This document shows, piece by piece, positions 13,033 through 15,417 of a stretch of DNA of 64,000 bases. How positions within the stretch are numbered: position 1 is the first letter of the stretch; each line of letters opens with the position of its first letter. Below the pieces are notes generated by a model, which saw only the letters and a list, made by a program, of their open reading frames with translations, was not told where the DNA came from and searched no databases. The translations under genes and the position numbers were made by a program. This DNA comes from Paenibacillus herberti (GTDB lineage: Bacteria; Bacillota; Bacilli; Paenibacillales; Paenibacillaceae), in assembly GCF_002233675.1 (NCBI RefSeq), contig NZ_NMUQ01000001.1:2086063-2150062 (forward strand), written 5' to 3'.

Positions 13033-13545
13033 ATGACACAGGAACGTCAAGCAAGCTTAAAGGGCAACCCAATTACTCTGGTTGGTCCACAGCTTCAAGT
13101 AGGGGATAAAGCTCCAGACTTCACCCTCAACAAATCTCTAGTCGACACAGTCAGCCTTGCTGATTATGGGGGTAAAATCAAGCTGATTAGTGTCGTTCCT
13201 TCGATTGACACCGGCGTATGTGACGCTCAAACTCGCCGCTTCAACGAAGAAGCAGCCAAGCTTGGTGAAAACGTAGCCGTTCTCACCGTCAGCGTCGATC
13301 TACCGTTCGCACAAGCTCGCTGGTGCGGCGCCGCTGGAATCGATAATGTTGTCCTTCTCTCCGATTACAAAAGCAACGAATTTGGACAAGCTTATGGTGT
13401 CCTGATTAAGGAATTAAGACTTGATATGCGCGCAATCTTCGTCATTGATGCCAACGACACGATTCAATATGTTGAAGTTCTCGGCGAAATGACCGAACAT
13501 CCAAATTATGAAGCAGCTGTTGAAGCCGTACGCGCCCTTCAATAA
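13033..13545 (+). CDS. tpx: Thiol peroxidase (atypical 2-Cys peroxiredoxin)
   Basis: Reduces hydrogen and alkyl peroxides using thioredoxin. The 170-residue protein has the peroxidatic Cys63 in SIDTGVCDAQTRRF and the resolving Cys98 in ARWCGAAG, the intramolecular pair of the Tpx group. Length and the VGDKAPDFTL segment are typical. GAAGGAGGAT precedes the ATG, with a sigma-A promoter upstream and a hairpin terminator 20 bases after the stop. Stands as a single-gene unit. Confidence 0.96.
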   Translation: MTQERQASLKGNPITLVGPQLQVGDKAPDFTLNKSLVDTVSLADYGGKIKLISVVPSIDTGVCDAQTRRFNEEAAKLGENVAVLTVSVDLPFAQARWCGAAGIDNVVLLSDYKSNEFGQAYGVLIKELRLDMRAIFVIDANDTIQYVEVLGEMTEHPNYEAAVEAVRALQ

Positions 13546-13609: not shown

Positions 13610-13999
13610 TCAGGAAGTTGTCTTATAAGAGGCCAGCTTCTTGTCCAAGGTACGATAAATGTCGAGAATAACCCTGTAGTTAGCGCCTAGATCGCCTAGC
13701 GAGCCACGCGAGGCTGAGTAAATATCAACCGCAGAAGTTACGGGGCCAGTCCCGATCACAGATACGGTGATGTCCATCGTCCTACCCGTTACAGTTCTTT
13801 TCTCAAGCACAATCTCCCCAACAGAAGGTACATCATGAAGTACCTTATATCCTTGCAACTTTTTTAGCGTGGACAATACCTCATCAAAAGCCTTGTCCTT
13901 GGAAAGCTTGTAATAATGGGATTTCAGCAGCGGATTCTTTGCCTTGTCGCCTGACTGTTCGAAGCTGCGCAGCAGACCCAGAAGCGTCCGTTTCAGCAA
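13610..13999 (-). CDS. DUF1499-like cytosolic protein
   Basis: A 129-residue protein with no signal peptide or membrane helix. The C-terminal half has the pattern IYSASRGSLGDLGANYRVI, close to the aSR-x-G-x-DLG-x-N-x-RI core of DUF1499 proteins, which is the basis of the name. The start is a TTG at 13999, with GGAGGGGG 9-12 bases upstream; no ATG fits better. Function unknown. Its stop lies just beyond the tpx terminator, so the two genes converge. Confidence 0.6.
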   Translation of the reverse strand: MLKRTLLGLLRSFEQSGDKAKNPLLKSHYYKLSKDKAFDEVLSTLKKLQGYKVLHDVPSVGEIVLEKRTVTGRTMDITVSVIGTGPVTSAVDIYSASRGSLGDLGANYRVILDIYRTLDKKLASYKTTS

Positions 14000-14060
14000 T
14001 GGTGATTCCCCCTCCGACGTCTATGTATATACAAGCAGTGAAACAGGTGCTACAAATTCA

Positions 14061-14089
14061 AAAAAAAGGCTCTGACGAGTGTCAGAGTC
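14061..14089 (-). terminator. Terminator of the candidate RNA at 14062-14290
   Basis: Minus strand CTCTGAC-ACTC-GTCAGAG hairpin followed by GCC and eight T residues. It is 280 bases past the yesL stop codon, so it may serve the independent transcript described next. Confidence 0.85.
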
Positions 14090-14290
14090 GTGAAAAACTC
14101 TAAATTAAAGTCCCGCAATGCCGTCCGACTCGCTTGTTCCTGAACCCGCTCTCGCAGGTGGGTGTCCTCAGAACAGCATTTGGGGTCCTCCATAAAATGA
14201 AGGCATGCCAGCCGCTGGTCGATGTTGAACTCCCGGGAAACAGCCATTGGTTCAAAACAATTTAAAGCCGTAACGAGCACCGCAGGATGT
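14062..14290 (-). ncRNA. Candidate structured RNA, 6S-like architecture
   Basis: There is no credible gene in this 280-base gap. A promoter (14297-14325) would start a transcript at about 14290 that ends at the hairpin terminator, about 229 nt. The 5' end (14287-14277) can pair with 14111-14121 over 11 base pairs including wobbles, extended by 14277-14272 with 14129-14134; an inner stem pairs 14258-14249 with 14136-14146 around a one-base bulge. The result is a long interrupted hairpin closing both ends, with a large central loop, then the terminator. That plan resembles 6S (SsrS) RNA, but I did not recognise conserved bases. A three-codon open frame preceded by GGAGG lies inside. Confidence 0.45.
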
Positions 14291-14296
14291 ATTGTT

Positions 14297-14325
14297 ATTA
14301 TAAGCGTTAGCGGCTCAAAAGTAAA
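14297..14325 (-). promoter_or_regulatory. Promoter of the candidate RNA
   Basis: Minus strand TTTACT, 17-base spacer, perfect TATAAT. It lies after the yesL stop codon and would not serve any open reading frame. Confidence 0.55.
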
Positions 14326-14368
14326 ATCCCAAGCTCCAAATTTCGCATCTTGGAAACGAGTGGAAAAA

Positions 14369-15148
14369 TTACTTTTTGGTGCCTTTCTCAAGCTCGTTGT
14401 CTACGAGATCCGCTTCTTCTTCTGCCTGGCGTTTCTTCGCCTCCATTTGGTCCTGTACCTTCTGATAAACGAGATAGAAGTTCCAGAAGGCGAAATAGGC
14501 GATGATGCTGCCCATGAAAAACGGAATCAGAAATGTAAACTTCGTAAAGCTGATATAAAAAACGAATCCGCTTACGATGGCCGTAGAGAAGGAACGGAAC
14601 GGCCTTCCAATCGTGATCAGAATTGCATTTTTGAGCAGCTGGAACGTCTTCATGTGATAGTGTACAACCATCGAGAAAAAATTGAAGACGGATATCGACA
14701 GCAGCAGCATCAAACCGATGAAAATATAGGATACAATTTGTAAACTTGGATTGTTCATGTACACGCGGTAGTCCACGATCATGATGGCGAACAAAAGAGC
14801 GTAAAGAATGCCACCAATCATGCTTTGAAGATAATTCTCCTTATAGTTGCGGAAATACGTCTTGAACAAAGGTACGTCTACATCTCCCATCACCCATTTG
14901 CGCGCTACGCCGAACATAGCCGTCGTCGCCGGAAACAATGTAAACGGAGAAGCAAGGATTGCTAAGAATATCCAACTAAAAAAGCTCTGGGTTACATCGA
15001 CGCCTTCAACACCTGTGGATAGAAATGCGGTAAGTACTAAAAAAGCAAACGGTATGGAACAGATAATCCAGAGAAGATTGATGACCGCAAGCCTCATGAT
15101 CCATTCGGATATGCGGTAAAAGCCTCCCATTACACCTTTCATTTCCAT
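14369..15148 (-). CDS. YesL family (DUF624) membrane protein
   Basis: A 259-residue protein with about five hydrophobic spans. The N-terminus MKGVMGGFYRISEWIMRL is typical of YesL/DUF624 proteins, which in Bacilli often sit in pectin or other glycan loci beside YesM/YesN systems. Here it stands alone, without transporter genes. The C-terminus is charged (EAKKRQAEEEADL). GGGGGG lies about 12 bases before ATG 15148; the ATG two codons later is an alternative. Function unknown. Confidence 0.8.
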   Translation of the reverse strand: MEMKGVMGGFYRISEWIMRLAVINLLWIICSIPFAFLVLTAFLSTGVEGVDVTQSFFSWIFLAILASPFTLFPATTAMFGVARKWVMGDVDVPLFKTYFRNYKENYLQSMIGGILYALLFAIMIVDYRVYMNNPSLQIVSYIFIGLMLLLSISVFNFFSMVVHYHMKTFQLLKNAILITIGRPFRSFSTAIVSGFVFYISFTKFTFLIPFFMGSIIAYFAFWNFYLVYQKVQDQMEAKKRQAEEEADLVDNELEKGTKK

Positions 15149-15321: not shown

Positions 15322-15417
15322 ATGGGTTACGGAGGTTTTGGAGGTAGCAGCAGCACTGGAGCTATTCTTGTCCTGTTCATTCTTTTGGTTATTATCGTGA
15401 GTGCATTCTGCTGGTAA
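15322..15417 (+). CDS. YjcZ-type small sporulation protein
   Basis: A 31-residue protein: a glycine-rich start (MGYGGFGGSSS) followed by one hydrophobic helix and the C-terminal SAFCW. This is the pattern of the YjcZ family of tiny membrane proteins in spore formers, many of them expressed in the mother cell or on the spore. AGGAGGTG sits 6 bases before the ATG. The gene has no partner; a bidirectional hairpin 130 bases downstream could end its transcript. Confidence 0.85.
   Translation: MGYGGFGGSSSTGAILVLFILLVIIVSAFCW

Follow-up and report, generated by a model that had tools for sequence, protein, structure and literature searches.

Identity of the RNA in the gap

The question raised by this locus is what fills a 280-base gap in the window, the whole 64-kb stretch of Paenibacillus DNA that was analysed. 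The sequence-only reading had claimed a structured RNA with a 6S-like fold, and had supposed it to be perhaps of a new kind, no conserved 6S bases having been recognised. When the whole window was compared with 4227 Rfam families at their gathering thresholds, the sole match was to RF00013 (6S/SsrS) at 14291-14106 on the minus strand, scoring 96.2 bits (E 5.2e-18) where the curated cut-off is 46.4. The match covers the whole model, positions 1-187 of 187, and its score is roughly double the gathering threshold; a search with this very model had been proposed as a check, and it bears out the claimed fold. The matched body is 186 nt long (14106-14291) and, by predicted folds and pair counts, forms a rod with a closing stem, a central bubble and an apical stem, within the range of about 180-200 nt of the 6S/SsrS family. 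Membership in this family is established by the model score, the structure, its conservation and the gene order: the RNA is of a well-known kind, an ordinary 6S gene that the public Rfam model readily recognises. The gap almost certainly holds the single detected 6S RNA gene (ssrS) of this Paenibacillus.

Gene order and transcription

On the minus strand upstream of the 6S gene lies a gene for a DUF624 membrane protein (14369-15148; Pfam PF04854, E 1.9e-18), and downstream lie a DUF1499-like gene (13610-13999, minus strand; PF07386, 22.3 bits, just below the cut-off of 22.6) and the thiol peroxidase gene tpx (13033-13545, plus strand; NF001808, 216.3 bits against a cut-off of 123). The same order, with DUF624 upstream on the same strand and both other genes downstream, was found at all 68 distinct loci of the family, of which 17 were obtained with DUF624 as the search bait and 26 others were the best-scoring loci of the family genome search. 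The DUF1499-like gene is thus as constant in the family as DUF624, despite its Pfam score below cut-off. The gene cshA was reached in at least 47 of the 68 loci, a number bounded by the length of the stretches examined. Judged by the DUF624 neighbour, the nearest named relatives are two strains of Paenibacillus pasadenensis (86% and 85%) and P. humicus (75%); 20 of 21 DUF624-neighbour loci were scanned, and the 6S RNA directly follows that gene in all 20. At 15322-15417 on the plus strand, a gene with a good ribosome-binding site encodes a glycine-rich one-helix peptide of 31 amino acids, which matches YjcZ_2 only below threshold (15.1 bits, cut-off 21) and nothing in NCBIfam.

The sigma-A promoter that had been read from the sequence is present from 14325 to 14297 on the minus strand, with the -35 hexamer TTTACT at 14320-14325, a 17-base spacer and the -10 hexamer TATAAT at 14297-14302, and transcription is predicted to start near 14290. 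The -35 hexamer is TTTACT in 47 and TTTACA in 16 of the 68 distinct family loci, one or the other in 63. By pattern alone promoter-like sites are near chance (five in 3.5 kb versus 4.1 expected from shuffled sequence), and the promoter is credible because TATAAT and the 17-base spacer are conserved in 68 of 68 loci. The hairpin terminator is likewise present where it had been noted, as a terminator-like hairpin at 14070-14087 on the minus strand followed by CC and a T run (CCTTTTTTTT); such sites, too, are near chance by pattern alone (five in 3.5 kb versus 3.3 expected). A terminator candidate was detected in eight of eight loci of the genus, three of them with one mismatch, and by a crude scan in just 29 of the 68 family loci, some of them weak. 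By analogy with the 6S family, the gene is expected to be transcribed from the sigma-A promoter, which would yield a transcript running from about 14290 to the terminator near 14062.

The RNA starts 77 bases past the stop codon of DUF624, on the same strand as this constant neighbour, as might be expected of a 3′ untranslated region of DUF624 mRNA rather than a free RNA; the conservation of its own promoter in all 68 loci and its match to a family of free RNAs speak against such an origin, which is very improbable. Read-through from DUF624 would not in itself exclude function, because in Bacillus subtilis a 6S-1 RNA that carried additional aspS and yrvM sequence was detected together with sigma-A polymerase (PMC11077062).

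Structure and its conservation

The predicted fold of the body has a free energy of -69.9 kcal/mol compared to a mean of -56.35 for shuffled sequences (z -3.31; one of 200 dinucleotide shuffles as good), and that of the 229-nt transcript has a z score of -3.45 (none of 200 dinucleotide shuffles as good). P1, P2 and the collapse helix are named as in PMC8876501. All features of the rod are on the minus strand. The 5′ strand of the closing stem (14277-14287, continuing with 14275-14273) pairs with the 3′ strand at 14111-14124 through standard pairs in the window; the 5′ strand of helix P2 (14249-14258) pairs with 14136-14146 around a bulge at 14140; the two sides of the central bubble (5′ side 14235-14248, 3′ side 14147-14159) are unpaired in the Rfam consensus structure; and the apical arm at 14160-14234 is paired as in Rfam.

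Conservation of this structure was assessed by overlaying the Rfam pairing of the window on a structure-blind MAFFT alignment of 51 distinct sequences. In this alignment 82.3% of cells pair, versus 38-52% when the partners are slid by one to three columns. The covariation score is 0.191, compared to a shuffled mean of 0.102 and reached by none of 500 shuffles, and two-sided change occurs in 19 of 51 pairs, a count reached by 11 of 500 shuffles; the slid control weighs more than the shuffles, which kinship can beat without structure. The number of further pair types among the 51 sequences was not above shuffles (68 of 500 reach the value). RNAalifold, given the same alignment, predicts 45 pairs on the same plan. 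Compensating changes in relatives, another check that had been proposed, are thus found in the rod, chiefly in the apical arm. Helix P2, with 509 of 509 cells paired, hardly varies and tells little either way. Several outer pairs of P1 are often unpaired in relatives, partly owing to a register shift caused by a one-base gap, and two consensus pairs of the apical arm hardly ever form there.

Three stems had been proposed from the sequence, and two of them stand: the closing stem 14287-14277/14111-14121, in which all 11 pairs are standard in the window and 428 of 561 cells pair over the 51 sequences, and the inner stem 14258-14249/14136-14146, with ten of ten standard pairs in the window. The third, an extension pairing 14277-14272 with 14129-14134, forms six of six standard pairs in the window but claims base 14277, which the closing stem also uses, and its register is not kept in relatives (193 of 305 cells pair over the 51 aligned sequences). 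It was rejected; the pairing of 14275-14273 with 14122-14124, by contrast, is formed in 153 of 153 cells.

In the genome to which the window belongs, one 6S match was found in total, and no second one even at E 10. Exactly one match, always above cut-off, was found in each of eight searched genomes of the genus and in each of 148 sampled genomes of the family, where the search filters were stricter and weak matches can be lost. Across the family loci, 68 in number, the RNA ranges from 181 to 193 nt and takes ten distinct lengths.

These results bear on the supposition that the RNA is a new structured RNA resembling 6S in general plan only. Familiar 6S bases were not recognised at first, and some Rfam consensus pairs are unformed in the family. 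Against this, the match to RF00013 is full-length with a score about double the gathering threshold, exactly one such match occurs in 148 of 148 family genomes, always at this type of locus where examined, and the bubble bases GGGAG and CACCCACCUG do align with the Rfam consensus. The RNA shares with RF00013 the full length of the model, the rod with a central bubble and the conserved bubble bases, and nothing in the unformed pairs bars membership; a new kind of RNA was rejected on the RF00013 score and is extremely improbable. A protein-coding gene, for which the 113-aa frame at 14050-14391 (minus strand) stays open across the gap, was rejected as having practically no chance of being correct, given that a Pfam search at E 0.001 finds no match for its product, that ten RNA lengths among 68 loci are unfit for a coding frame, and that the changes follow the helices.

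Bubble, predicted product RNA and proposed mechanism

In the 6S RNA thus identified, GGGAG on one side of the bubble is present in 68 of the 68 distinct family loci, CACCCACCUG on the other side in 66, and the template motif GUUU[U/C]GAACC likewise in 66. By analogy with the product RNA (pRNA) of B. subtilis 6S-1, a 14-nt pRNA, AUUGGUUCAAAACA, is predicted to be copied from the 6S RNA at 14246-14259 (plus strand). The B. subtilis 6S-1 pRNA is GUUCGGUCAAAACU (PMC12005410); the predicted pRNA equals it at ten of 14 positions, with positions 7-13 identical, and begins with A instead of G. The template base for the predicted start is U in 66 of 68 loci, and the base 3′ of it is G in 65 of 68. A study of lactic acid bacteria describes a conserved A immediately upstream of the pRNA start (PMC8414754); as the neighbouring base is G here, the start site is uncertain.

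According to PMC8876501, 6S RNAs mimic an open promoter and bind the housekeeping holoenzyme, and pRNA synthesis opens P2 and brings about release. The RNA of this Paenibacillus likely does the job of any 6S RNA, with sigma-A polymerase being bound to an open-promoter mimic and freed by pRNA synthesis, steps of binding, synthesis and release that we infer from the 6S family. The body at 14291-14106 would fold into one long rod whose central bubble mimics an open promoter, and binding of sigma-A RNA polymerase to it would lower transcription from housekeeping promoters. Release would come as the polymerase uses the bubble's 5′ side as template for a pRNA beginning AUUGGUUCAAAAC; this pRNA would open P2, and the freed strand would refold, giving a hairpin on the bubble's 3′ side as well as a helix with the 5′ side.

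When the 14 template bases were forced to be unpaired, the predicted fold moved, in an uncontrolled comparison, to a hairpin on the bubble's 3′ side, and the 5′ side came to pair with the P2 strand thus set free, with two registers in competition. The hairpin predicted upon opening of P2 is ACCUGC-GAGA-GCGGGU (14144-14159, minus strand); 99.7% of its cells pair, and change is one-sided only, so that shuffles are uninformative. For the collapse helix, 280 of 306 cells pair, versus 35-75% when slid, and three cells show two-sided change; seven of 500 shuffles reach its pairing percentage and 31 of 500 its covariation score, from which the helix may be regarded as a weakly supported prediction.

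Which 6S lineage

A sample of 200 genomes of Bacilli contained 195 with a 6S match, of which 144 had one, 49 had two, one had three and one had five. The five genomes without a match under the stricter filters belong to two families (f25 and f26) in which genus-mates were matched, and perhaps carry a divergent 6S RNA that falls below the filter. Among the two-copy genomes of Bacilli that were examined, nine of ten carry one copy beside aspS, the identity of the aspS query having been confirmed. In the genome with five matches (G310), four were examined: one (L078) sits between aspS and a ThiF-family gene, and the other three occupy separate sites, L076 and L077 sharing 94% identity and L079 being 85% identical to each of them, a pattern that looks like amplification of the non-aspS copy.

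In a short, unrooted tree, ten aspS-linked sequences were split from all others with a support of 0.997, and 23 Paenibacillaceae sequences formed a group among 14 non-aspS copies with a weak support of 0.724. The gene studied here lies outside the aspS split, and its neighbours in 68 of 68 loci are DUF624 and DUF1499/tpx, unlike those of the aspS-linked 6S-1 (bsrA). Because the tree is unrooted and short, the placement outside the aspS-linked lineage is a hint only.

The Paenibacillus RNA shares with B. subtilis 6S-1 its plan, positions 7-13 of the predicted pRNA and a predicted collapse helix; it differs from B. subtilis 6S-1 and the aspS-linked copies in the location of its gene between DUF624 and DUF1499/tpx and in the A with which its predicted pRNA starts. 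With the second, non-aspS copies of Bacilli (6S-2-like) it shares the same side of the aspS split, whereas only one gene was detected here, with no aspS-linked copy alongside; in the two-copy genomes, neither DUF624 nor tpx was detected in a range of 2.5 kb around the 6S-2-like copies.

No paper specifically on a Paenibacillus 6S RNA was found among the listed titles and openings of abstracts, although surveys of 6S RNA or the Rfam alignment may include Paenibacillus. Wehner 2014 and Barrick 2005 are two such surveys, and Cabrera-Ostertag 2013 is reportedly a study on the initiating nucleotide.

It is conceivable, if rather unlikely, that the only detected 6S RNA of Paenibacillaceae stands outside the aspS-linked 6S-1 lineage, at a conserved locus of its own and with a pRNA that starts with A. 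This reading draws on a predicted start site and on an unrooted tree of sequences about 190 nt long, and its standing is lowered by the group support of 0.724 and by the base next to the start, which is unlike the A reported elsewhere.

The 280-base gap is explained in that the RNA is this organism's 6S RNA; the invariable gene order and a pRNA predicted to start with A are minor details of the Paenibacillaceae 6S RNA that can be tested. If the unlikely reading above were true, release of polymerase would be tied to ATP, as opposed to the GTP reported for B. subtilis 6S-1, and a whole family would be running its 6S control on a different nucleotide signal.
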